Below are positions 24,340 to 44,888 of a DNA stretch of 46,415 bases, in pieces. A program made the position numbers and the translations under genes. The DNA is taken from assembly GCA_029262115.1 (NCBI GenBank), contig JAJCZZ010000054.1:1-46415 (forward strand), written 5' to 3'. The stretch is from Gemmatimonadota bacterium (GTDB taxonomy: Bacteria; Gemmatimonadota; Gemmatimonadetes; Longimicrobiales; Gaopeijiaceae). Positions within the stretch are counted from its first letter, which is position 1. Each line of letters starts with the position of its first letter. The notes under the pieces were generated by a model that saw nothing but the letters and a program-made list of their open reading frames with translations, had not been told where the DNA came from and did no database searches.

Positions 24340-25374
24340 TCAGCGCATCTTTCGCGTCAGGTGAACGACCACTCCCTGTTGAAACACGGCGTCATCGATG
24401 TCGATGATCTGGGCGGACGCCGTCTCCGCGGTGACACCGACGACCTGGAGGCGTCCTTCGATCACGCTGTCGCCGGCAGCCGGGTTCCGGTACACGAATT
24501 CGTCTCCGACGGCGACCCCCCCATTGAGTCCGAGATCCAGAAAGGCGATGGCGCCAAGGTCCTGAAGCACCGAGAGGCCGGCGAAGCCCATGACCATGGC
24601 CGCGGAGCCCCGCGTCACCGCCTCCGCCATCCGGCCGGCCTGGATCGGATAGTTCGGGAGCGGGCCGACCATGTCCGTCAGACTGATCCGGTCATACTCC
24701 TTCGTGACCACCCCGACGACCCCATGTGACCCGACGTCCGTAATGGTGATGACGCCCGTCGGGCGGACCACGTCACCGACGTCTTTCACGGTTCGCGCGA
24801 CCCGGAACGTCCTCAGCTCATCTCCGACCCGCAGCGTCGCGCCACGCGGCCGGATCACCACGCGGTCGAAGGAACGCGGGGTCTCCGAACGGCCGCTTCC
24901 GGTCGCGAACGACGCCACGACGCCCCAGTGCTCCGGGACCGTTTCCAACGGGATCAGCCACGGAGCCGAGTACACCTGGTCGCGTGAGACGGCCAGCACG
25001 TTGGGATCAGCCGCGGACCCCCCCGTCACCTGCGGCACGACCGGGTTGTAGAAAATGGTGCGCGGAGGCCCCGTGCGGACCGGAGGAAGCGGAGCGGCGG
25101 GGCCCCTCTCGACCAGGACGCCCGTCACGGTCGCGTCCACCATGACGTCCGGGATCGTCAGCACCTGGCCTGGAAGAATCAGGTTCGGATTTGTCACGGA
25201 TGCCTGGTTGGCTGTCCAGATCCGGCGCCAGTCGAACGGGTTGCTGTAGTATTGGTTCGCAAGATCCCACAGCGTGTCACCGGGCCGGACCGTGTGGCTC
25301 CGGGGAGTCTGTTGGGCAGCGAGAAGGCCGGGAATGACGAGAGCGGCGAAGACCGCTCGAGCCGATCGAACCAT
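24340..25374 (-). CDS. Exported LysM-domain protein
   Basis: A 344-residue protein with a signal peptide (MVRSARAVFAALVIPGLLAAQ) and one LysM module (~28-76: HTVRPGDTLWDLANQYYSNPFDWRRIW to NLILPGQVLTIP), which binds peptidoglycan N-acetylglucosamine. The remaining ~265 residues are beta-rich with recurrent G/V/D patterns (GDVVRPTGVITITDVGSHG) and match no family I recognise. It has its own promoter (25461-25490) and a strong terminator after it, so it is probably a single-gene unit between the capsule and tol operons. No catalytic hydrolase motif is visible. Confidence 0.83.
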   Translation of the reverse strand: MVRSARAVFAALVIPGLLAAQQTPRSHTVRPGDTLWDLANQYYSNPFDWRRIWTANQASVTNPNLILPGQVLTIPDVMVDATVTGVLVERGPAAPLPPVRTGPPRTIFYNPVVPQVTGGSAADPNVLAVSRDQVYSAPWLIPLETVPEHWGVVASFATGSGRSETPRSFDRVVIRPRGATLRVGDELRTFRVARTVKDVGDVVRPTGVITITDVGSHGVVGVVTKEYDRISLTDMVGPLPNYPIQAGRMAEAVTRGSAAMVMGFAGLSVLQDLGAIAFLDLGLNGGVAVGDEFVYRNPAAGDSVIEGRLQVVGVTAETASAQIIDIDDAVFQQGVVVHLTRKMR

Positions 25375-25518: not shown

Positions 25519-28500
25519 TTATGGTCCGGATCCACGCCACCCCAGCCGGAAAGCCGTGACGCCGAGCGCAAAACGCCCCGTGCGCCAGCCATCGTCTCCC
25601 CACTCCAGCTCCGCGAGACCGGTGATGGAGATACGGTGACTCGGACGCACCCTCAGATCCAGCTTCGAGCCCCACGCGGCCCCTGGACGGGGCCCATGAA
25701 GGAGATTGAACTCGTCGCGGCGAAGACGGCGCAGCGCCACGGTCCCGTCGATCCGAAGGGTCCGGTCGGCTCCGCTGGCTGCCAGGACGTGCTGACGTCC
25801 GTAGCCGCCCAGAGGGTGACCCAGAAGATCACCGCCGGCCTGCCAGCCGTCCTGGAACCGCGTGTGCTGGTACCAGAACGCGGGCAGCGTGTCACACCAC
25901 GAGCACCATCGGCCGGCGGGCCCGATGCCCGTGTACTCGTACCGGACCGCCAACAGCCCCGCGGGAACGGGGACGTCGAGGATCGCGCCGACCTGGACGG
26001 CCCCGTCCCCGAAGGAGCGCTCGTTGTCCTCCAGCGCCACCTCCCCGTATGCGACGAGTGGAACGCCCCACCCCGCAAGAGAGCCGCGCGCGTCGAACGC
26101 CCACACCTGGTTGTCGAATTCGGTGACCCGCCCCACGAGGATGTCCACGACATCGCCGAAGCCGAGGTCTCGCGTGTCGGGCGGGTGGTCGATGGTCTGG
26201 AAGGGCGGCGTTCCTCCCGAAAAACGGCCACCGACCAGCGCGGCACGGCTCGCGCCGAACCGCACCCGCTCCGTGGGAGCAACGGTCAGGCGGGCGAGCG
26301 CGAACCACGGGTCGGACACGGGCGGGGCGTACGCACCCATCCGGAAGACACCGGCCGTGGCCGTGCCCCGGCCGAGCCAGCCGAGGCTGAACGGTCGCCA
26401 GGTCGTGAGGAGGGCACCGTCCAGCGGGGCGGCGGCGGACAGAGCCAGGCCTCCGAACAGGCCTCCACCCAGTTGGAGGCGGGAGCGCCCCAGGCGGAGC
26501 GCGAGGCTCCCGATCCGGACGCTGACGCCTCCCTCGCGCAGAGGACGCGATTCGCCTCCAAAGGCACCGAGGTGCGCCGACGCCCAGAGCCGATCGCCGG
26601 CCCGCCCGAGACGGACCCCCGCGAGCAGGGACGCTCCGGGCGTGCCCGACCGGGCATGCGTGTAGCCGACGCCGACGGACAGGGTCCCCCCTCGGTCGTC
26701 GGGCGCCATCTCGTCGCGAAGCCGACGAAGGGCCCGTGCCGGGAAGGGCGCGGCGTCCGACCGTTCGGATGTCGTAGCCCCTGACGACGCCGCGCTCAGC
26801 AACCGGTCGATCCACTCGCCATGCAGCGGACCTGAGCGCGCGGCACCGACCGGCACGGTCCCCCGGGCCTCGAGTGCTTCCAGGATCGTGACGGCCCAGT
26901 GATCCGCCGGAGTGAGCGCCGGGCCGGCCGACGCCTGGGCAGAGGCGGGTCGAACAGCCATCCCCATGAACAGGGCCAGTGCCGAGGCGACGGCCCCGGC
27001 GCGTCCCACCCTACGTGCGAACGAACGGATCTGCGGGACCCCCATGAGCCACGCGACGGCTCCGTAGGCGCCCATCCACACCAACGAAACGGAGAACAGG
27101 AGCGCGACCCGCCCTACCGTGCCCTGAACCTCGGGATCTGGCAGGTACCGTAGAGCGAATAGGAAGCCCGCCAGAGGAACTGCTGTGGCCACGGCGATCC
27201 CGCGGCCCGTTCCTCGGAGCACCGTGGAGAGCGCCGCTCGCGGGAGGCCCCACGAGGTGGGAGCCAACGTCACGAGCAGGACGAGAACGAGAGCGTTCAT
27301 GGCCACCTGAGCGCCGACCAGGCCGGCGTACGAGAACAGGAGAACCGCCGGAACGATGGCCGCGGCGCGAGTCAGATGTCCGACGATCTGGACGCGATTG
27401 ACGAGTCGGGCACGATCCGAGGCGAAGGCCGCCGTGAACACGAGCTGATTCATCCCCTGGAGAAGGAAGCCGAGCACGAAGATCTGGAGCGCGACAGAGG
27501 CGGGCGCCACCATCCCGTCCGCGAGGAACTGACCGCGCCCGAAGAGGATGGCAATCGACCACGGCGCGGTGACCGCGACCAGCACGGACAGCGGGACGGA
27601 GATCGAGGCGAGCGTGGCCAGGCCGTCCCTGAGCTGCCCGCCCAGTTCTGTGTCGAGGTCCGAAGTGGACGTCTCATGACGGGCGTCCGAGAAGCGCGGT
27701 AGCGACACCGTCTGCATGGGGTCGTTGACGGCGCCGTGCAGCAGGTCGTGGACCATTCGGCCGTAGAAAACGGCCGAGAACAGTCCGACCGGGAGGAGGG
27801 ACGCCGCGACCCGGAACGCCCATTCACCCAGGAACGTGGCGGCGTTGCTTCCGCTGAAGCTCAGCCACTGGCGACCGACCCGGACAACGGCCTCCCGCGC
27901 GTCCTGAACCTCACCCTCGACGGGCCCTCGTTCCGATCCGGCGCTCCCCTCAGGAGTCCGGGCGGTGGCCGAGGCGGGCTCGGTTCCCGGGTTCTTTGAT
28001 CTGGCACCCAGTAGAGGACGCACCGCCAGGAGAGCAATCGCCCCGCCCGCGACCCCACCGGTCAGACCGATCCAACCCACGCCGATCATTCCGCCACGGT
28101 CGGCCACCACGAGAAGGAGGACCAGCGAGAGGACCGCCGGGACCAGCTTCTGAGCGCTCACGGTGACCCCGAACCGGTGGGAGCTCTCCAGGGCCACGAG
28201 CGACGCCGCCGTCGTACCCAGGAAGACGAGAGCGGGCAGTCGAATCCGGACGAGAGAGACCGTCAGGTTCCTCTGCGCGCCCTCGTAGCCGGGGGCCAAC
28301 ACGTCCACGAGGACGGGGGCGGCGGCGAGCAGGACCAGCGCGAGCGCCAACAGCCCGCCGGCGGTCCAGCGCAGCACGAGGACGGCGAATCTGCGCGCCT
28401 CCTCCGGACGACGCTCCCTGAGCCCACGGTACGCCGGCAACGCGAGCGACTTCAGGTGCGTCAGCATCAGGAACTTCCCCAGGAAGCCGAAGATGCTGAG

Positions 28501-28641
28501 GCTCATGAACCAGGCGTCGGTGTCCGCCCCGGCGCCGAAGTAAAAGGCCAGGAGCGACTGAAAAAACAGCCCGAAGACCGCGGCAACGAGGGTACCGCCG
28601 CCCAGCAGGGCGGCCCCGCGGAGCGGAGCGGAAGCGGTCAA
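25519..28641 (-). CDS. MurJ-like polysaccharide flippase fused in frame to a Wzi-like capsule-assembly barrel
   Basis: A continuous frame of 1040 residues. Residues 1 to ~545 form a MurJ/MviN-type flippase with about 14 helices (FGLFFQSLLAFYFGAGADTDAWF at the start; NDPMQTVSLPRFSDARHE and GVPQIRSFARRVGR near its normal end). Residues ~548-568 (AGAVASALALFMGMAVRPASA) look like a signal peptide with an ASA/QA cleavage site. Residues ~570-1040 match capsule-assembly Wzi proteins: DHWAVTILEALEARG, WFALARLTVAPTERVRFGASR and FQDGWQAGGDLLGHPLGGYG, with barrel-like strands. The start is TTG 28641, whose TTGA overlaps the upstream stop; the frame further upstream only shadows the WecA-like gene. An internal ATG at 27045 or GTG at 27009 could start a separate Wzi protein. 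A stop (TAG, 27013-27011) lies one frame away. Confidence 0.78.
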   Translation of the reverse strand: MTASAPLRGAALLGGGTLVAAVFGLFFQSLLAFYFGAGADTDAWFMSLSIFGFLGKFLMLTHLKSLALPAYRGLRERRPEEARRFAVLVLRWTAGGLLALALVLLAAAPVLVDVLAPGYEGAQRNLTVSLVRIRLPALVFLGTTAASLVALESSHRFGVTVSAQKLVPAVLSLVLLLVVADRGGMIGVGWIGLTGGVAGGAIALLAVRPLLGARSKNPGTEPASATARTPEGSAGSERGPVEGEVQDAREAVVRVGRQWLSFSGSNAATFLGEWAFRVAASLLPVGLFSAVFYGRMVHDLLHGAVNDPMQTVSLPRFSDARHETSTSDLDTELGGQLRDGLATLASISVPLSVLVAVTAPWSIAILFGRGQFLADGMVAPASVALQIFVLGFLLQGMNQLVFTAAFASDRARLVNRVQIVGHLTRAAAIVPAVLLFSYAGLVGAQVAMNALVLVLLVTLAPTSWGLPRAALSTVLRGTGRGIAVATAVPLAGFLFALRYLPDPEVQGTVGRVALLFSVSLVWMGAYGAVAWLMGVPQIRSFARRVGRAGAVASALALFMGMAVRPASAQASAGPALTPADHWAVTILEALEARGTVPVGAARSGPLHGEWIDRLLSAASSGATTSERSDAAPFPARALRRLRDEMAPDDRGGTLSVGVGYTHARSGTPGASLLAGVRLGRAGDRLWASAHLGAFGGESRPLREGGVSVRIGSLALRLGRSRLQLGGGLFGGLALSAAAPLDGALLTTWRPFSLGWLGRGTATAGVFRMGAYAPPVSDPWFALARLTVAPTERVRFGASRAALVGGRFSGGTPPFQTIDHPPDTRDLGFGDVVDILVGRVTEFDNQVWAFDARGSLAGWGVPLVAYGEVALEDNERSFGDGAVQVGAILDVPVPAGLLAVRYEYTGIGPAGRWCSWCDTLPAFWYQHTRFQDGWQAGGDLLGHPLGGYGRQHVLAASGADRTLRIDGTVALRRLRRDEFNLLHGPRPGAAWGSKLDLRVRPSHRISITGLAELEWGDDGWRTGRFALGVTAFRLGWRGSGP

Positions 28642-30500
28642 CCGCTTGTAAGCGACGACACCGCGGGCTCGAGGAACGGGATGCCGGCCCCTCGTGCGTC
28701 CAGCCAGGCGTCGGCCGTGATCACATCCAGACGAGCCACTTCGGCCGTCATCCCGGTCTCCAGCACTCCGTGGAGCAGAAGCTGGAGGTCTTCGTCGGCC
28801 ATGTAGGGGAAGCAGAAGATCACATGCTCCGCACCATACAATCGCCCGAGAGCCGGAATCCGCGAGGCCGCGCCCAGGACGCGGACCCCGCCGACGAGAC
28901 TCCGATGCGCGGCCGGGTCGTCGTCGGCGAAGCCGATCACCTGGTACCCCGGCCCCGACCGGTGACGAAGGTGACGAAACACCGTGAGGACACCATCGGC
29001 CGAACCCGCGATGATCGTGCGCCGTCCCTCGCGCGTTCCCCACTCACGGGAGGTGACCTCGCCGAGGGCCCGGACACCCAGACGCGTCAGACCGAAGAAC
29101 AGGAGCGATACCAGTCCCTCGAGGACGATGACCGTTCTCGGGAAGGACGGAAGCCGCAGTACGAAGAGGAGGGCCGCGAAGAGGAGCGTCCCGAGCACGA
29201 CCGCACCGACCAGGCGCACCGCATCGGAGGCCAGCCCGAGCTTCCACTGGGTCTCGTAGACCCCGAAGAGGAGGGCGAGGCCCACACGGAACACGAGGAT
29301 GTAGGGGAGGACGGCCGCAAGGTTGGCGAGCTGATCCGCCGGGATGGAGCCGTCGAAGCGGAGGTAGAACGCCAGATACATCGATGCGAAGACGAGGACC
29401 ACGTCGCCGACGACCGCCACCATGCGGATGACCCACCGGTACCAGGGCGACTCCTCCCATCCGGGCTTCTCCCGCGCCACGAGAAACTCGCGCTGGAAGT
29501 CGTGGACCCGTCCCTCGTACAGGAACACGCCGAGATACATCAACAGGAGCAGGAAAAGCGACGCCCCCACGGCGTACGCCATCGGTGTCGACGTGACGAC
29601 CAGAACGCCGACGGTTCCGGACACCGCCGAGAGGACGTAGACGGCCAGAAGCGCGCGGCTCCGACTCATACCGTGCGCGAGCAACCGGTAGTTGATATGG
29701 TCCGCCTTCCCGCGGCTGAGCGGCACGCCGGACAGCTTCCGCGTGACCGTGACGAATGTGGTATTGAAGATCGGCACGGCCAGGAGGAGCGTGGGCGCCA
29801 GGATCGTGAACGCCAGCTGCGTCAGCCCTGCCCAGCTCTCACCGATGGCCAGCCCGGCCAACAGGAAGCCGAGGAACATCGATCCGGAGTCACCCATGAA
29901 GATCCGGGCCGGCGGCAGATTGGCAGGAAGGAAGCCCAGGACCGCGCCCGCCACGATCCAGGACACCAACGCGGTTTCCGGCCGGCCCGTCGCGTAGGCG
30001 AAGACGCCGACGAAGATGGCCGCGACGGCCGCCACACCGGGCAGCATGCCGTCCATGTTGTCGATGAGGTTGAACGCGTTGCACACCCCCACGAACCACA
30101 GCATCGTGACGGGAACGGCCACCCACTCCAGCCCCGGACCGAGGGGGAACGTGACCCCGCCGATGACCATGGCCGCCGCCGCGCCGAACTGGATGAGCAG
30201 CTTGGTCCGCGGCGCCAGGAGACGGACGTCGTCCCAGACGCCCGCAAGGAAGAGAACGGTCGCCCCGGCCAGGGGGAGCGCAACCCCCGCAATCGCGTGG
30301 CCGCTGACCGCCATGACGGTGACCAGCAAGCCGACGACCACCCAGATGGCGATCCCGCCGCCGAGTGGGACAGGACCCGGGTGATTGGGATCGGGTGCCG
30401 ACACGAGCCCGATCCGCGGGAGGACACCGATGGCGACGCGACTGAGCGCCCACGACCCCACGGCGGCGGCCCCCGCGTAGAACGCGACCTCGGCGATCAT
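28638..30500 (-). CDS. WecA-like polyprenyl-phosphate sugar-1-P transferase fused to a CapD/FlaA1-type N-terminal module
   Basis: A 620-residue membrane protein. Residues 1 to ~325 are a MraY/WecA-family transferase that loads a sugar-1-phosphate onto undecaprenyl phosphate. Visible motifs are DD at 90-91 (GVWDDVRLL), NLIDNMDG at 144-151, FMGDSGS at 201-207 and SRGKADHINYRL around His268. Residues ~354-480 add four helices (GDVVLVFASMYLAFYLRFDG), and ~492-590 add a Rossmann-like unit (RRTIIAGSADG, GYQVIGFADDDP, GGVRVLGAASRIPAL). This is the arrangement of the N-terminal half of CapD/FlaA1 dehydratases, but the catalytic SDR half is absent. It starts 4 bases after the SDR stop and overlaps the flippase start by 4. 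Confidence 0.85.
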   Translation of the reverse strand: MIAEVAFYAGAAAVGSWALSRVAIGVLPRIGLVSAPDPNHPGPVPLGGGIAIWVVVGLLVTVMAVSGHAIAGVALPLAGATVLFLAGVWDDVRLLAPRTKLLIQFGAAAAMVIGGVTFPLGPGLEWVAVPVTMLWFVGVCNAFNLIDNMDGMLPGVAAVAAIFVGVFAYATGRPETALVSWIVAGAVLGFLPANLPPARIFMGDSGSMFLGFLLAGLAIGESWAGLTQLAFTILAPTLLLAVPIFNTTFVTVTRKLSGVPLSRGKADHINYRLLAHGMSRSRALLAVYVLSAVSGTVGVLVVTSTPMAYAVGASLFLLLLMYLGVFLYEGRVHDFQREFLVAREKPGWEESPWYRWVIRMVAVVGDVVLVFASMYLAFYLRFDGSIPADQLANLAAVLPYILVFRVGLALLFGVYETQWKLGLASDAVRLVGAVVLGTLLFAALLFVLRLPSFPRTVIVLEGLVSLLFFGLTRLGVRALGEVTSREWGTREGRRTIIAGSADGVLTVFRHLRHRSGPGYQVIGFADDDPAAHRSLVGGVRVLGAASRIPALGRLYGAEHVIFCFPYMADEDLQLLLHGVLETGMTAEVARLDVITADAWLDARGAGIPFLEPAVSSLTSG

Positions 30501-32714: not shown

Positions 32715-33376
32715 TCCGTTGGGTTCCATGGAGGATCCGCTCGCCGCATCGGGCGGGCGGGAACGCCGACGACAACCGCGTCGGGGGGGACGTCCTTCGT
32801 GACGACGGCACCGGCCCCTACGACCGCCCCGGCACCGATCCGGCAGTGGGGGAGCACAACCGCCCCCGTCCCGAGGTGGGCACCCTCGCCGACCTCGACG
32901 GCTCCGGCCAGGTCGACGCCCGGCGAGATGTAGGAGTAATCGCCAACCGTCACATCATGCGCGAGGGTACAACCGGGGTTCACCACCACGTGATCGCCGA
33001 GCGTCACGTCGACGGTGAACGAGCAGCCGCCCATGACCAGGCACCCCGTCCCGAAGGTCACCCACCGCGTCCGGATCGTCGAGGGGTGGAGTTCCGTGGC
33101 GAAGTCGTGCCCCGCGCTCGCCAGCTTGCAGGCGAGCACGCGACGGATGCGAGGTGCACCCATAACGAGGAGGACGGACACCGAGCCCTGGCGTCCTTCA
33201 AGCCATGCGCCCGTTCCCAGAACAGGCAGACCAAGGAGGTGCGTCCCCTCCTTTTCGGGGTCGTCGTCCACGAAGCCGAGCACGCGGTCGGGCGGGTCAC
33301 CGTCGCTCCCGAGGAAGACCGAAACGGCGTCACGGCCGAGTTCGGACGCCCCGTAGAGCACGACGGGTCCACTCAT
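32711..33376 (-). CDS. PglD/NeuD-family sugar O/N-acetyltransferase
   Basis: A 221-residue acetyltransferase. The N-terminal Rossmann-like domain (~1-80: VVLYGASELGRDAVSVF, GFVDDDPEKEG) would bind the nucleotide sugar. The C-terminal left-handed beta-helix of hexapeptide repeats (~95-215: GCLVMGGCSFTVDVTLGDHV, GAGAVVGAGAVVTKDVPP) binds acetyl-CoA. The catalytic-type His lies in the conserved CTLAHDVTVGDYSYISPG. Such enzymes usually acetylate the amino sugar made by an adjacent DegT aminotransferase, which is the next gene (four-base overlap). The start overlaps the glycosyltransferase stop by four bases. Confidence 0.9.
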   Translation of the reverse strand: MSGPVVLYGASELGRDAVSVFLGSDGDPPDRVLGFVDDDPEKEGTHLLGLPVLGTGAWLEGRQGSVSVLLVMGAPRIRRVLACKLASAGHDFATELHPSTIRTRWVTFGTGCLVMGGCSFTVDVTLGDHVVVNPGCTLAHDVTVGDYSYISPGVDLAGAVEVGEGAHLGTGAVVLPHCRIGAGAVVGAGAVVTKDVPPDAVVVGVPARPMRRADPPWNPTE

Positions 33377-34536
33377 GCCTTTCCGACCCCTGCCCTCGAC
33401 CCGCGCGCGCCATCGGGAGCCACGGCATGGCGGAGCGCGCCCATGTACAGTCGGAAGCGCTCGGCCCAGTCCGGGAACGCCGCCAACCGTTCGAAGCCGG
33501 CCGCTCGGAGGCGAGCGCGTTCGTCCGGCTCCATGGCTCGTTCGAGTTGGTCCGCACAGGCCGTCGGGTCCAGTGGATCCGCGAAGAGAGCCGCGTCCAC
33601 ACAGACGTCGTGCGCGAAGTCTCGATCGCTGGTCACGATGGGCACACCGAAGTGCATGGCTTCGAGGTAGGTGGCGGAGAACGACTCGAAGTGTGACGGA
33701 ACGAACACAACGGCGGCGCTCCGGAAGAGGTTTCCCAGTTCATCGTGCGGGACCCGGCCGATGCGCTCCACGAGACTCGGACGGCCCTCGCGTTCGAGTG
33801 CGTCGTCGAGGAGGTGGGACCAACGGTCACCACCGGCCGATACCGTGACCACGAACCGCAGATCTGCGTGCCCGCGGTTGGCCATCTCCTTCGCCACCAC
33901 AGGCAGGACCTCCAGATTTTTCGCGAGCTTGGCTTCCGCCACCACCAACACTACGGGGGGCGTGGGCGGCTCGGGCGGCGCCGGAGCCTCCCCACTCAGG
34001 TACGTCGAGGGGCCGTTGGGGACGAGAACGAACCGGTCCTCCCCGATGCCCCACAGACGCGAGAGTCGACGACGCATCGTCGACGTCTGCACCGTGATCG
34101 CGGCCGCCGCCCGCGCGGCCCCACGGGCGAGGACGGCGCGAAGGCGCTCGTTGGCCTGCTCCACACGGGGCAGGCGCCCGTGCACGGGCGCCTCCGGGTA
34201 GGCGATCGAGGAATCGTGCCAGCCGATCACCCGAGGGATCGGCGCACGCAGCGGTCCGACGCCCATGGGCGTCCACATCACGTCGGCGCCCGTCTCTGTC
34301 GCGACTCTCGAGAGCTCGACGTTTTCCGTCCAGAGGCGCGCGCGAAGCGACGGCGCCGACACCTCACGCAGTTGGCAGTTCGGCGTGACCGCCGGAGCCA
34401 GCCCGAGGTCGGACCGCGCGAACACGGTCCACTGGTGCTCGTGCCCGTGCGTCTGAATCGCGCGCCAGAGATTCCTGGCGTTCTGGAGACCACCGCCGCG
34501 AGGAAGGAGAGGCAGGAAGTCGACGATCACGTTCAT
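33373..34536 (-). CDS. GT4-type glycosyltransferase
   Basis: A 387-residue GT-B-fold transferase. The N-terminus MNVIVDFLPLLPRGGGLQNA is typical, with an acceptor-domain loop at WHDSSIAYPEAP. The donor domain contains LVVAEAKLAKNLEVL and the EX7E motif in PSHFESFSATYLEAMHFG, followed by GVPIVTSD. ATG 34536 overlaps the wzy-like stop by four bases. The much longer frame reaching 36027 only shadows the polymerase gene and is rejected. It probably adds one sugar to the lipid-linked repeat unit; being the only obvious glycosyltransferase here besides the priming enzyme, it suggests a short repeat unit or further enzymes elsewhere. Confidence 0.9.
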   Translation of the reverse strand: MNVIVDFLPLLPRGGGLQNARNLWRAIQTHGHEHQWTVFARSDLGLAPAVTPNCQLREVSAPSLRARLWTENVELSRVATETGADVMWTPMGVGPLRAPIPRVIGWHDSSIAYPEAPVHGRLPRVEQANERLRAVLARGAARAAAAITVQTSTMRRRLSRLWGIGEDRFVLVPNGPSTYLSGEAPAPPEPPTPPVVLVVAEAKLAKNLEVLPVVAKEMANRGHADLRFVVTVSAGGDRWSHLLDDALEREGRPSLVERIGRVPHDELGNLFRSAAVVFVPSHFESFSATYLEAMHFGVPIVTSDRDFAHDVCVDAALFADPLDPTACADQLERAMEPDERARLRAAGFERLAAFPDWAERFRLYMGALRHAVAPDGARGSRAGVGKA

Positions 34537-35873
34537 CGGACGACTCTCACCGCACGGGCTGTCACTCCCGGGTCCCCAGCCACCGCGGGCGGAGGTCCCA
34601 GCGCGCCATCCCCCTGGCCCGTGCCGTCGCTCCCACCGGGCTCCCCGGACGGGAGTTGCCGGCCCGCAATGAACTGGCTGAGAAGTGCAACGCCCGTGAA
34701 CCAGATCAGGGCATTCCCGAGAAAGCGATGGGTACGGAACGCGAGCACCACTGCCAACAGGAAGTCGATGTATACGATGAGCCAGAACAGATTCGCCCCG
34801 GTCCGGAAGCGCCGGTACACCACGCCCACGAGAGCCCCGTACACCATCGGCATGACCAGGAGACCACCGACACCGAAGTCGAAATAGAGGAACGACAAGA
34901 AGGTCGGCGTATTGTGGGTGCCGTACATGTAGCTGATCTGATCGTCCACGACGCGGGTGCCGGGCGCGAACGTCTTGGGCAGATCGTAGCTGTTGAGCCC
35001 CATGTTCAGGGGGCTCCCGCCCCGCTCCAGCGTGTACTGAAGGTTCTTGAAGCTCGCCGCCGTGTGGGCCCAGGCGGTGGCCGGTGCGCTGAGATCGATG
35101 CGTGGATTCACGAGACTCGGGTTCACCTCGTACATCGTCCGGCGGAAGCTCTCGATGACCGTGAAGACCGTGAGTGCGACCGCGACCGCGGCCACCATAT
35201 GGCGGACCTTCACCCTCGTGGGGCGATAGAAGAAGAAGATCAGCACCCACGCCAGCGCGGTCATGGGCGACACCCGCACCCCCGCGAACATCAATTGGAA
35301 CACGCTGGCGAGCCCCGTGGCCACCCACAGGATGCGCTCCGAACGTCCCTTCACGTGGAGCACCAGCATGGCCGAGAAAAGGGCGACCGCATAGTGGAGG
35401 TCGTATACGTATCCGAGAAGGGGGAGCTTGAACTCCGTACGGAGCGAGTCGATGCGCGGGCTGAAGAGGGGAATCGCCCCCGCCCTCTGGACGAAGTACA
35501 CCGTCATCAGTGACGCCAGGACGAACATCGTGACGGTCAGCGGCTTCAAGCGATTCCACGCGATCCCGTTCTCCAGGCGCCATCCGATCCGCTCGCGATC
35601 CAGCCGGCCCATTCCCGGGTCCGCCAGCCAGAACCCCAGGGCGAACGACGCGAGGGCGGCGAGGACGACCACGTAGGTGAGAACACCGAACGGCTCGGCG
35701 TAATACGGCTCGTCGTAGGTGCGCGAGACGTTGACGTGCGCGAACCCGAAAATGACGAGCCAGAACACGGTGAAGATCGCCAGCGGGTGGAGCGCGTCGT
35801 CCGTGCGTCGGTAGAGCAGCACGTACGCACCCACTCCGAGGGCGGCGAAAATGGATCCGAAAATGGCGTCCAA
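34533..35873 (-). CDS. O-antigen/capsule polymerase (Wzy-like)
   Basis: A 446-residue membrane protein with about ten to twelve helices and a large periplasmic loop (~225-300; VNPRIDLSAPATAWAHTAASF, SYMYGTHNTPTFLSFLYFDFG), as in oligosaccharide repeat-unit polymerases. Primary sequence is poorly conserved in this family, so the call rests on topology, the TPTFLS..YFDFG region and operon position. The start is TTG at 35873, with GGAG a few bases upstream. It is the first gene of the minus-strand polysaccharide operon, behind a predicted promoter at 35953-35982. The Gly/Ser/Pro-rich C-terminus is cytoplasmic or disordered. Confidence 0.78.
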   Translation of the reverse strand: MDAIFGSIFAALGVGAYVLLYRRTDDALHPLAIFTVFWLVIFGFAHVNVSRTYDEPYYAEPFGVLTYVVVLAALASFALGFWLADPGMGRLDRERIGWRLENGIAWNRLKPLTVTMFVLASLMTVYFVQRAGAIPLFSPRIDSLRTEFKLPLLGYVYDLHYAVALFSAMLVLHVKGRSERILWVATGLASVFQLMFAGVRVSPMTALAWVLIFFFYRPTRVKVRHMVAAVAVALTVFTVIESFRRTMYEVNPSLVNPRIDLSAPATAWAHTAASFKNLQYTLERGGSPLNMGLNSYDLPKTFAPGTRVVDDQISYMYGTHNTPTFLSFLYFDFGVGGLLVMPMVYGALVGVVYRRFRTGANLFWLIVYIDFLLAVVLAFRTHRFLGNALIWFTGVALLSQFIAGRQLPSGEPGGSDGTGQGDGALGPPPAVAGDPGVTARAVRVVR

Positions 35874-35952
35874 GGGACTCCGGGACAGTCGGGCGGCGGG
35901 CGGTAGAAGCTCCAGGGAGGGCCGATCCGCGCCCTATACCAGGGGCAGGGGA

Positions 35953-35982
35953 AAAGTACCGTGTTCGTAAGGGGCCGGTCAA
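35953..35982 (-). promoter_or_regulatory. Predicted promoter of the polysaccharide operon
   Basis: On the minus strand TTGACC (35982-35977), an 18-base spacer and TACTTT (35958-35953) form a sigma70-like promoter. Predicted start is near 35946, with a leader of about 70 bases before TTG 35873. It faces away from the wza promoter 33 bases away. Confidence 0.5.
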
Positions 35983-36014
35983 CCGAGAGGCCCACTCCGG
36001 CACGGCTTTTCGCC

Positions 36015-36043
36015 TTGCCGGCCCCACCCGCCAGGGCTACACT
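36015..36043 (+). promoter_or_regulatory. Predicted promoter of wza-wzc
   Basis: TTGCCG (36015-36020), a 17-base spacer and TACACT (36038-36043) form a sigma70-like promoter. Transcription would start near 36050, about 60 bases before the ATG at 36110. Confidence 0.5.
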
Positions 36044-36743: not shown

Positions 36744-39146
36744 GTGGCCGAGAACGGACACGGTACCCGCCCGCCGCAGCGCCCTCCCGAGGTCGAATCG
36801 AGCGACGTCCGACTGCGGGACCTGGTCCACCTCGTCCGGCGCAACCTTCTGCTGATCTCGGCCATCGCCGGGGCAATCATCGGTGGGACGGCGTGGTGGG
36901 TCTGGACGTCGCCGCCCGTCTTCCAGGCGCAGGCGACCATCCACGTCGACCAGGACCGCGCCGCCTCGGCCGACCTGCCGTTCCTGGCGAATATGTTACA
37001 GAGCAGCGATGTCGAGACGGAGATGGCGCTTCTTCGGGCGCGCAGCATCGCCGAGGAAGTCGTCCGTCGGCTGAGCCTCCAGGCACGGGTGGTCGAACCG
37101 AAAGGCGTCTCACGAAACGGGCTCTTCGCTGAGATCGCGGCCGCGGCGAGCACGCAGAGCGAAACCTACACGTTCGAACGCCAACAAGACGGTCGCTACC
37201 GGGTGACGGCGAGCGACGACCGCGAGGTCGCGATGATCGCGCGCGGGGAGGTCGCTGTGTTCAACGGACTCCGGCTTGCGTTGACCGAGGTCGACCCTAC
37301 ACCTCCGGGGCGTAGCGTCTTCCCGGAGACGATCGTTCTTCAGGCCAAGTCGTTCTACGAGGCCGTGGACGACCTGCAGGGCGGGGTGAGCGTGGGGCGG
37401 CCGTACCGTGACGCGAACGTGGTCGCGGTGACCTTCATCGGACGCGACCCTCAACTCGTGCGAGACGTCCCCAACACGGTGGCCGCCCTGTACATGGAGG
37501 GGCGAAGGGAGGACAAGAAGACCGAGTCGTCCAGCACGGTGGCCTTCCTGAGCGACCAGATCGACGCGTACACGCTAGAACTGCGTCAAGCCGAGGACAA
37601 TCTCCTCGCCTTCCAGCAGGGCGAGCAGGTTGTGAACCTTCAGGCGGAGGGCGCCGAGCAGGTGCGGCGCCTGGTCGACGCCGAGGCCCGCAAGGACCAG
37701 ATCGATCAGGATCTCCGGACACTGACGACGCTGCTCCAGGAAATCGACGCGGCGCGTGCCAGCGACGATGTAGAAGCCAGCGCCGACGCGTTTCGGCGCC
37801 TGGCGGGCTTCCCGACCTTCCTGGAGACGCAGGCGGTCACCGAGATCATGACCCAGTTGAACGAGTTGGAGGCCAGTCGCACGGGGATGGCGCAGCGGCG
37901 TAGGGCGAATCACCCCGAGATGGTCGCACTCCAGAACTCGATCGAAGGGCTCGAGAACCGGTTGTACCAGCTCGCGCTCAACTACCGGAGCGGTCTGTCG
38001 TCCCAGCTTTCGGCGGTGGAAGAGAATCTGTCACGCTTCGGTGGCCAGCTCGAGGAGATCCCCCAAAAGGCAGTCCAGGAAGCTCGGCTCGAGCGTGAAA
38101 AGGAGGGGCTCGAGGAGATCTTCACACTGCTCCAGAGCCGCCTGAAGGAAGCCGAGATCGCGCAGGCCGTCGAGCCCGGCGACGTGCGGATGGTCGACTC
38201 GGCGGTCCTCCCGCTCCGCCCGATCCGGCCCCGGCGCGGACGGAGCCTGTTCCTCGGCGTCTTTTTCGGCCTGGTCGTCGGCGTGGCCGTCGCAGGCGCC
38301 CGTGACTACATGGACGAGACCGTCCACTCGCGGGACGAGGTGGTGAAGGTCACCAATCTGCCCGTGCTCGCCATGATCCCCCGGATCAAGGGGATCGGCA
38401 ATGGGAATGGGAAGCGGCTCCTTGGGCGGGACCGCGCCGTCGGAGATCGACTCGTCACACGAAACGATGTCGGCAACCCGGTTTCGGAAGCGTACCGCGC
38501 CTTCCGAACCAACATCACCTTCCTCGATCTCGACAATCCGCCCCAGATTCTGGTCCTGACGAGTCCGGGGCCCTCGGAAGGCAAGTCGACCAGCGCCGCC
38601 AACCTTGCCATCACCCTGGCCCAGCAGAGTACACGAGCCCTTCTCGTCGACTGCGACCTCCGGCGTGGAATCGTCCACCGCGTATTCGAGGTACCCAAGG
38701 AACCGGGTGTGACCGACATCCTCCTCGGCACGAGCAGCCTGGACGAGTCGATCCATTCCGTCGACGTGGGAGAGGGGAAGAGCCTCCACTTCCTCGCGAC
38801 CGGGACGCTCCCACCGAACCCCTCCGAGCTTCTCGGGTCACCCAGGATGCGTGATCTACTGAACAAGCTGAGGGAACGGTACGAGATCGTGATCCTGGAT
38901 TCGCCGCCGCTCAACCTGGTGACCGATGCCGCCGTGCTCGGGACGGTCGCCGACGGCGTTGTGATGGTGGCGCGGGCCGGCGCGACGGAGAAGGGCGCGC
39001 TTCGGTACGCCCAGGAGCAACTCGAGGCGGTGCGGGCGCCGATCAGCGGGGTGGTGCTGAACGACCTGGACTACTCGGGGCGCGGCAAGTACTACGGGAG
39101 CGGGTATGGGTATGGGTATTATTACCGCTACTACCGCGCCGACTGA
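36744..39146 (+). CDS. Wzc-type polysaccharide co-polymerase and tyrosine autokinase
   Basis: An 800-residue inner-membrane protein controlling polysaccharide length and export. The N-terminal Wzz domain begins after LRDLVHLVRRNLLL, with helix 1 at ~33-55. A long periplasmic coiled coil (~255-470) follows, and helix 2 lies near 495-515 (SLFLGVFFGLVVGVAVAGA). The kinase domain has Walker A around 606-616 (GPSEGKSTSAANLA), Walker A' near 633 (LLVDCDLRRG) and Walker B near 714 (IVILDSPP). The C-terminus is a tyrosine cluster (~778-798: YYGSGYGYGYYYRYY), the autophosphorylation site. The start is GTG 36744, four bases after the wza stop. The protein is full length and all kinase motifs are intact. 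Confidence 0.93.
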   Translation: MAENGHGTRPPQRPPEVESSDVRLRDLVHLVRRNLLLISAIAGAIIGGTAWWVWTSPPVFQAQATIHVDQDRAASADLPFLANMLQSSDVETEMALLRARSIAEEVVRRLSLQARVVEPKGVSRNGLFAEIAAAASTQSETYTFERQQDGRYRVTASDDREVAMIARGEVAVFNGLRLALTEVDPTPPGRSVFPETIVLQAKSFYEAVDDLQGGVSVGRPYRDANVVAVTFIGRDPQLVRDVPNTVAALYMEGRREDKKTESSSTVAFLSDQIDAYTLELRQAEDNLLAFQQGEQVVNLQAEGAEQVRRLVDAEARKDQIDQDLRTLTTLLQEIDAARASDDVEASADAFRRLAGFPTFLETQAVTEIMTQLNELEASRTGMAQRRRANHPEMVALQNSIEGLENRLYQLALNYRSGLSSQLSAVEENLSRFGGQLEEIPQKAVQEARLEREKEGLEEIFTLLQSRLKEAEIAQAVEPGDVRMVDSAVLPLRPIRPRRGRSLFLGVFFGLVVGVAVAGARDYMDETVHSRDEVVKVTNLPVLAMIPRIKGIGNGNGKRLLGRDRAVGDRLVTRNDVGNPVSEAYRAFRTNITFLDLDNPPQILVLTSPGPSEGKSTSAANLAITLAQQSTRALLVDCDLRRGIVHRVFEVPKEPGVTDILLGTSSLDESIHSVDVGEGKSLHFLATGTLPPNPSELLGSPRMRDLLNKLRERYEIVILDSPPLNLVTDAAVLGTVADGVVMVARAGATEKGALRYAQEQLEAVRAPISGVVLNDLDYSGRGKYYGSGYGYGYYYRYYRAD

Positions 39147-43304: not shown

Positions 43305-44888
43305 GTGTCCAGATTCGGTCCCTTGTCATCCGTTCGCGTCGTCGCCCTGACGCTATTCCTTCCCCTTTCGTCGTCGGGACAGCAAGCAACGGATCAGTGT
43401 ACGCTCGCCCTTCGAGCTTCGGCGGCACGGTCGGATGGACTTTGTCTCAGGCAGCGGGTGCTGCCTCTGCCCGCTCCCCTGCCGTCGACCGGAGATGGGG
43501 AGCAGGACGGGATTCGACCCCTGCCCTGGTCGTCCGTCACGAGCTTCCGGAGCGGGTATCCGATCGACCGGAACAACGGCGCCATATGGGCTGGACGTGG
43601 TCTCTCCGCCGGAGTGACCAGTGGCGCGCAGGGTCGATGGGGCCCGATACGACTCTCTATTCAGCCGCTCATCCACGCGAATGAAAACCGCTCCTTCCCG
43701 GTTCCTGACACGGCCGTGACCGGTCGATCGAGCCTGGCGTACCCGTGGGCGTTCGGAGATCTGGACTGGTATCTCCGCCCCGGCGGGGGGAGACAGTGGG
43801 CGCTCGATCTCGGTGACTCTTTCGTGCAGGCCGACATGGGCCCGCTTCGCGCCGGAGTCTCAGCGGAGCGTCTCTGGTGGGGCCCGGCCAGACGCTACCC
43901 TCTCCTTTTCAGCGGCTCGGCCCAGGGATTCCCCCATGTGTACGTCGGGACCGAGCGGGACGCCGCGACCTACCTCGGCAAGTTTTCCGGGGAGATCCTG
44001 TGGGGCCGCCTCGGGGAATCCGATTGGTTCGACGCAGACCCGCGCAACGACCTCCGTCTCTTGTCGGCGTTGCAGATCCGCTGGATCCCGGAATTCGTGC
44101 CGGGCCTGGAGGTATCGTATTCGCTCGCTCGCCACGAGCCACTACCAGATCGTCGGCTCCAGGCCCGACAGCTATTGGACCTCGTAACAGGAGATCCTCA
44201 GGGAGAACCACTCGGCCAGCGGGGCGTCCCGATGGGGAGCGTGGCATTCCGCCTGGGCCTACCCGATGACGGCGTGGAGGTCTATGCCGAGATTGGCCGG
44301 GGTGAGGGCTTTCTCGTTCCCGACCCCGGGGTATCCGACACCGGTCACAGCCAGATCTTCGTCATGGGATTCGCCCGGACGGACACGACCGCGTCTGGCG
44401 GAAAGTGGCGACTGGCCGGAGAGGTCGTAGCGCAAGCTCTTGAACTGCCGCAGCCACGGAGGGATCCGGCGGAGAACCGACCACTCGATCCACCAGTTCA
44501 CGGACACACCAATCGTGGGCAGCTGCTCGGCGCCTACGTCGGTCCCGGGTCGAACGCGCAGTACTTGGCCTTCGACCGAATCGACCCCGCGTGGACGTGG
44601 GGTTTCTTCCTCGAAAGGGTACGGAGGGACGACGACACCTACTTTCGCACGCTGTCCACCAATTACGGGTTTCGTGGCCATGACGTAGAATGGACGATCG
44701 GTGCCCGCGCGGGAGGGTGGTCGGATTTCTCGCCACTCGAGCGGCTCATTGGTCCTCTGGCGGGCGGCGCAGAGATCGGTCTGAGCCGAAGGAAGAACCG
44801 CAATTTCACAGGCCTACTCCAAGGTGACTGGATCTTCCTGCGTGAGTGGAACGCCTGGGCGGACCTTTACCTCTCCTGGGATCCTTAG
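43305..44888 (+). CDS. Capsule-assembly Wzi-family outer-membrane protein
   Basis: A 527-residue exported beta-barrel. The signal is MSRFGPLSSVRVVALTLFLP. Family-typical segments include DLGDSFVQADMGPLRAGVSAERLWWGPARRY and FSGSAQGFPHVYVG, then repeated beta strands to a terminal segment ending YLSWDP. Wzi proteins bind capsular polysaccharide at the surface of the outer membrane. The start is GTG 43305, with no Shine-Dalgarno visible. It is 55 bases after the cytochrome-like gene and may be a separate unit. With the Wzi module of the flippase fusion there are two such barrels in the cluster. Confidence 0.82.
   Translation: MSRFGPLSSVRVVALTLFLPLSSSGQQATDQCTLALRASAARSDGLCLRQRVLPLPAPLPSTGDGEQDGIRPLPWSSVTSFRSGYPIDRNNGAIWAGRGLSAGVTSGAQGRWGPIRLSIQPLIHANENRSFPVPDTAVTGRSSLAYPWAFGDLDWYLRPGGGRQWALDLGDSFVQADMGPLRAGVSAERLWWGPARRYPLLFSGSAQGFPHVYVGTERDAATYLGKFSGEILWGRLGESDWFDADPRNDLRLLSALQIRWIPEFVPGLEVSYSLARHEPLPDRRLQARQLLDLVTGDPQGEPLGQRGVPMGSVAFRLGLPDDGVEVYAEIGRGEGFLVPDPGVSDTGHSQIFVMGFARTDTTASGGKWRLAGEVVAQALELPQPRRDPAENRPLDPPVHGHTNRGQLLGAYVGPGSNAQYLAFDRIDPAWTWGFFLERVRRDDDTYFRTLSTNYGFRGHDVEWTIGARAGGWSDFSPLERLIGPLAGGAEIGLSRRKNRNFTGLLQGDWIFLREWNAWADLYLSWDP

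Follow-up and report, generated by a model that had tools for sequence, protein, structure and literature searches.

A single uninterrupted reading frame from an uncultured Gemmatimonadota bacterium encodes both a MurJ-like flippase and a Wzi-type outer-membrane barrel, joined through an internal helix that resembles a signal peptide. The frame is situated within the window, by which is meant the whole stretch of 46,415 nucleotides analysed (contig JAJCZZ010000054.1), and runs on the minus strand from 28641 to 25519 as 1040 stop-free codons. Its presence in the contig sequence is confirmed. On balance, and with restrained confidence, it is best explained as a real, lineage-specific, in-frame fusion of neighbouring genes of a Wzx/Wzy cluster, the chain of which would be cut by signal peptidase into two proteins. 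The computed part of this explanation comprises a single frame, the completeness of both modules, natural gene ends, a signal-like joint and separate genes in relatives; the substrate, the cutting and an equal stoichiometry of the products are inferred.

The frame starts with a TTG codon that overlaps the stop codon of the upstream gene (TTGA). Within its 1040-residue product, Pfam recognises MurJ (PF03023, residues 32-488, 3.5e-31) and Caps_assemb_Wzi (PF14052, residues 700-971, 5.1e-21). Long open frames are cheap in a high-GC genome, and Wzi open frames of other genomes often extend hundreds of codons upstream without containing any domain, so the openness of 28641-25519 alone proves little. 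Nevertheless, each half has a coding-like GC content by codon position, and both have it in one and the same frame (0.72/0.51/0.84 and 0.75/0.60/0.82), which, together with the homology found in both, argues that the fused frame is not a mechanical artefact of high GC. Additionally, the flippase's own stop codon is absent from the contig sequence; unless that sequence is wrong, ribosomes translating the flippase must therefore run on into Wzi. The open frame, Pfam, AlphaFold2 and Foldseek thus all bear out the original prediction of one frame with two complete modules, and the signal-like helix, the ATG at 27045, the GTG at 27009 and the out-of-frame TAG at 27013-27011 that it listed are all present in the sequence.

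The flippase module occupies residues 1-544 (27010-28641, minus strand), as delimited by Pfam, AlphaFold2, Foldseek and the gene ends of relatives, and belongs to the MOP superfamily. It scores 108.7 bits against PF03023 (gathering score 27.4), and its AlphaFold2 model, computed as for the other half from alignments of relatives found in the searched genomes, has a pLDDT of 86. The closest PDB matches to this model are MurJ structures (7wax, 9.0e-14, TM 0.74/0.83; 5t77, 2.9e-13), followed more weakly by MATE proteins and WzxE (5.1e-5). The MurJ-like fold that had been proposed therefore stands, but an identification as MurJ itself does not: the module reaches 119.8 bits against the NCBIfam MurJ equivalog TIGR01695, for which the cut-off is 235.55, and a canonical MurJ is encoded elsewhere in the same genome (G000:C60:6056-6628, L077), with 300.8 bits against TIGR01695 and a match to solved MurJ structures at 1.4e-48. 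Of the residues lining the MurJ cavity and portal, Arg24 is invariant and Arg18 conserved (PMC6465408). Both are replaced in the window flippase and in four close relatives, where the canonical SR...R[DE] reads AA...[FL]Q.

The genomic surroundings point instead to a polysaccharide-cluster flippase. Directly upstream lies a WecA-like sugar-phosphate transferase (28638-30500, minus strand), the stop codon of which overlaps the TTG start of the fusion; it is 60-68% identical in relatives and precedes the flippase directly in every case. This transferase combines a WecA/MraY-type GT4 domain with CoA_binding_3, which is otherwise typical of WbaP/WcaJ-type transferases, and the combination is conserved in the relatives. 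The cluster further contains an O-antigen-polymerase-like Wzy (34533-35873, minus strand; PF01901, 5e-11), a glycosyltransferase, an aminotransferase, epimerases and, in divergent orientation, a Wzc-type chain-length regulator and kinase with Wzz, GNVR and AAA_31 domains (36744-39146, plus strand). Because of these neighbours, the flippase is most likely the Wzx of the cluster: it is encoded together with an initiating transferase, Wzy and Wzc, and no other flippase is recognised among the cluster genes. Its assignment as the Wzx of this local Wzx/Wzy cluster is thus considered probable. A second apparent fusion in the window, an 884-residue frame at 33373-36027 (minus strand), was rejected, as its N-terminal part is a wrong frame of the Wzy gene; the glycosyltransferase begins near 34536, and Wzy overlaps it by ATGA.

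The second half of the chain is a complete predicted Wzi barrel, judged by its match to PF14052 (75.6 bits, gathering score 30.1) and by its modelled architecture. E. coli Wzi is built from a three-helix N-terminal plug and an 18-strand barrel (PMC3791409). In the AlphaFold2 model of the window protein (pLDDT 84), a periplasmic three-helix plug is predicted at residues 582-645 (26707-26898, minus strand), with helices at positions 38-48, 64-75 and 88-101 of the half-model, followed by 18 predicted strands forming an outer-membrane barrel at residues 652-1031 (25549-26688, minus strand). Foldseek returned E. coli Wzi (2YNK) as the top PDB match at 3.3e-20, with the next at 5.1e-10. A second, stronger Wzi is encoded in the same genome (G000:C82:95147-96283, L076). 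The window also contains a possible divergent Wzi-like barrel at 43305-44888 (plus strand), with a Pfam Wzi match of 0.0038, which is below the cut-off, and 91.6 bits against our own Wzi profile.

Between the two modules, residues 545-568 (26938-27009, minus strand) form a signal-peptide-like joint, VGRAGAVASALALFMGMAVRPASA, complete with n-region, core and A-x-A site. The basic n-region is supplied by the flippase tail, the hydrophobic core is 16 residues long (mean KD 1.99), and the predicted cut at 26938/26937 separates VGRAGAVASALALFMGMAVRPASA from QASAG, that is, after ...RPASA. A-x-A sites follow residues 568 and 570, the latter being an alternative cut. In alignments the segment lies where separate Wzi genes have their signal region. 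A plausible signal-peptidase site between the halves, as was anticipated, is borne out. The C-terminus of MurJ-type flippases is cytoplasmic, so the joint helix would be correctly oriented as a signal. Over a 19-residue window, its KD of 1.64 is just at the membrane-helix threshold, and the helix might therefore stay uncut. Only 13 residues separate the predicted cut from the first Wzi helix in the AlphaFold2 model, which amounts to some 45 Angstrom at most; as these cannot span the periplasm, correct placement of both halves would require that the chain be cut or that translation start twice.

The origin of the joint is suggested by related genomes. Among the family and class genomes searched, the flippase subfamily has only four other members (G037, G054, G055 and G060), and in all four the flippase has a short tail and terminates within some 2-25 residues of window residue 545. 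The gene order in G060 and G037 is transferase, flippase, (LysM), epimerase and ExbB, with no Wzi at the locus, while G055 and G054 have Wzi as a gene of its own, with the same LysM gene next downstream, and their flippase is found on a different contig. The Wzi block of G055 adjoins RelA, UvrB, TsaE, TsaD and ALAD; the Wzi contig of G054 begins at the first codons of Wzi. In the window, as in G054 and G055, the LysM protein (24340-25374, minus strand) is encoded directly after Wzi; in G060 it comes after the flippase. The window thus unites a flippase block with a Wzi-LysM block, and the fusion point falls exactly between them. Since the relatives' flippases end close to the joint and Wzi is separate in G054 and G055, two abutting genes appear to have been joined at their natural ends, in agreement with the original prediction. 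The refuting case named with that prediction, in which close relatives all carry two separate genes, holds for G054 and G055 but not for G037 and G060, which have no Wzi at the locus. Separate genes, or no Wzi at the locus, in the relatives make the fusion lineage-specific, but not thereby false.

A bolder form of the preferred reading holds that the frame encodes a two-membrane precursor, in which one translation product yields an inner-membrane flippase and an outer-membrane anchor, and that it is one of several independent Gemmatimonadota fusions that attach the Wzi signal to the cytoplasmic terminus of a glycan enzyme and so fix the ratio of synthesis to anchoring. This broader form is tentative.

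The reliability of the contig sequence at the joint bears directly on whether the fusion exists in the cell. An assembly artefact or strain polymorphism, such that the cell has two adjacent genes and the intervening stop was lost in assembly, would account for the fusion being seen in a single genome, known from a draft assembly (110 contigs; the analysis was performed on the contig sequence), and for the separate genes of G054 and G055. The out-of-frame TAG (27011-27013, minus strand) is located one base ahead of GTG 27009. The sole homopolymer near the joint, a five-G run (27039-27043, minus strand), lies about 26 bases upstream of that TAG, and one added G there would lead to it. It had been suggested that this TAG could be the trace of a one-base fusion of formerly overlapping genes. 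Yet out-of-frame stops occur in the fused gene at a rate of 25 per 2082 triplets, which gives roughly even odds of finding one close to the joint; the TAG is no more than chance and carries no weight. In an ungapped comparison of eight residues only, the fused-frame peptide VPQIRSFA (27039-27016) matches the tails of the four relatives with a summed BLOSUM62 score of 27 (shuffles -26 +/- 15, 0/10,000 as high), whereas the TAG-reaching frame obtained by adding one G to the run scores -34 against the same tails. Because flippase homology continues in the fused frame to about 27016, a hidden indel in the run is unlikely, and the one-base indel proposed at the joint is disfavoured; few bases are left to conceal one, none of them in a homopolymer. 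Moreover, among the tail codons immediately preceding GTG 27009, those at 27033 and 27024 are each one substitution from a stop, either of which would shorten the flippase tail, and the neighbouring genes align to those of the relatives without frameshift. The final few bases ahead of GTG 27009 could still contain an error, or the site could be polymorphic, but this explanation as a whole is considered rather unlikely. A contig chimera need not be invoked, as the genes around the joint occur in the same order in G060 and G037.

The DNA fusion could also be real and most Wzi still arise by internal initiation, at GTG 27009 or ATG 27045, as had been offered as an alternative. Each of these codons has a complete signal peptide downstream of it, and in G054 the separate Wzi is read from a GTG-type codon at the equivalent position, although its start is not certain because the contig begins there. 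Shine-Dalgarno pairing is, however, absent at GTG 27009 (+0.4 kcal/mol), and the GGAG situated 14 bases before ATG 27045 is badly spaced, its -5.8 falling within the background of internal ATG and GTG codons (10th percentile -6.1), so that a separate start of the barrel finds little support. Furthermore, termination-reinitiation is impossible without a stop codon, and translation of the flippase would still give the fusion. Internal initiation as the main source of Wzi is thus improbable. In view of the short linker and the lack of a ribosome-binding site for a separate start, we infer cleavage by signal peptidase I as the best mechanism.

A recent stop-loss with impaired function, leaving the chain uncut or misfolded and the polysaccharide system damaged or redundant, would agree with a fusion seen once, and the strong Wzi of contig C82 could cover the loss. 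Both halves are conserved like their unfused relatives, though, with flippase profile scores of 616 bits fused versus 537-558 unfused and Wzi profile scores of 423 versus 417-420, which indicates that neither is decaying; the signal peptide is also intact, and damage of this kind is decidedly improbable. Finally, a single uninterrupted chain could in principle tie the flippase to the outer-membrane barrel as an uncut trans-envelope protein, but the reach from predicted cut to plug is far below the width of the periplasm and the A-x-A site is good, making this the most improbable of the readings.

For the preferred fusion and cleavage, the following course can be envisaged. The first half would act as the cluster's flippase for lipid-linked repeats, with its C-terminus facing the cytoplasm and its basic tail providing the n-region for the signal peptide of Wzi. 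This signal would cross the inner membrane in an N-in/C-out orientation in the course of Sec-dependent insertion and be cut by signal peptidase I after ...RPASA, such that the flippase would keep a short extra helix. A normal Wzi would be released by the cut and folded into the outer membrane by BAM, and the flippase and Wzi would be produced 1:1.

Such an arrangement is rare. None of the 121 family, 154 order and 394 class genomes searched yielded another MurJ-Wzi frame, and the fusion protein as query returned no match to the genome contigs. PF14052 matches occur in 175 of the 394 class genomes; the phylum sample largely repeats the class sample, and the fusion searches were confined to the phylum. 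A Pfam scan of 32 long Wzi open frames from other genomes, together with six more inspected, found Wzi alone in all except one (L097), and for several of the six the codon composition shows clearly that the upstream part does not code in that frame. The exception, an independent parallel in G319 (L097:1754-6109, G319:C12, plus strand), is one frame of 1452 codons that runs from a GT2 glycosyltransferase through the signal-like GRWPAGVLAAALLCGLPAGRSAAQ into two successive Wzi barrels, and its composition is of coding type across the GT2-Wzi joint; in family relatives of G319, GT2 and Wzi appear as separate matches. A frame in G175 (L096:455-4183, G175:C3, plus strand) contains two Wzi barrels, and in both tandem frames the barrels succeed each other with no intervening signal, in keeping with the notion that the signal is retained only where the upstream part is not exported. 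The G319 case suggests that in-frame joins recur around Wzi. A further candidate, a supposed GT2-Wzi frame of 1148 residues in G271 (L127, G271:C381), one of these family relatives, was rejected because a stop codon separates GT2 from Wzi in the sequence.

If the chain is cut as predicted, a bacterium can derive an inner-membrane and an outer-membrane protein from one chain by means of an internal signal peptide. This would provide a simple way for neighbouring operon genes to fuse with neither product lost, and would caution against annotating such frames as one bifunctional protein. A literature search returned no paper joining MurJ and Wzi, and nothing on Wzi in Gemmatimonadota. Each module is known by itself, but the literature searched contains no description of the two united in one chain.

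Among known systems, MurJ (PF03023, TIGR01695; PDB 7wax, 5t77, 6cc4; PMC6465408) shares the MOP fold and is the best match to the flippase half in both sequence and structure, from which the window flippase differs by its score under the equivalog cut-off, its replaced arginines and its location in a polysaccharide cluster. The WzxE/Wzx flippases belong to the same superfamily and correspond in the role and position expected within a Wzx/Wzy cluster, but the window flippase is structurally nearer to MurJ than to WzxE. E. coli K30 Wzi (PF14052, 2YNK; PMC3791409) shares with the second half the 18-strand barrel, the three-helix plug and the N-terminal signal, as well as a polysaccharide cluster with Wzy, a WecA-like transferase and Wzc. 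The window Wzi is about 18% identical to it, and carries its signal peptide inside a longer chain, in frame with a flippase. In the GT2-Wzi-Wzi frame of G319, the natural end of a glycan enzyme is likewise joined in frame to a Wzi signal and barrel, but the upstream partner is a cytoplasmic glycosyltransferase and a second Wzi without a signal follows. The cytochrome b-c1 precursor FbcH of Bradyrhizobium japonicum offers a precedent for the proposed processing: a single chain contains an inner-membrane protein with several spans together with an exported protein that bears a signal, and this internal signal is where the chain is cut. The proteins themselves are different, and both FbcH products stay at the inner membrane, whereas the window Wzi would reach the outer membrane.
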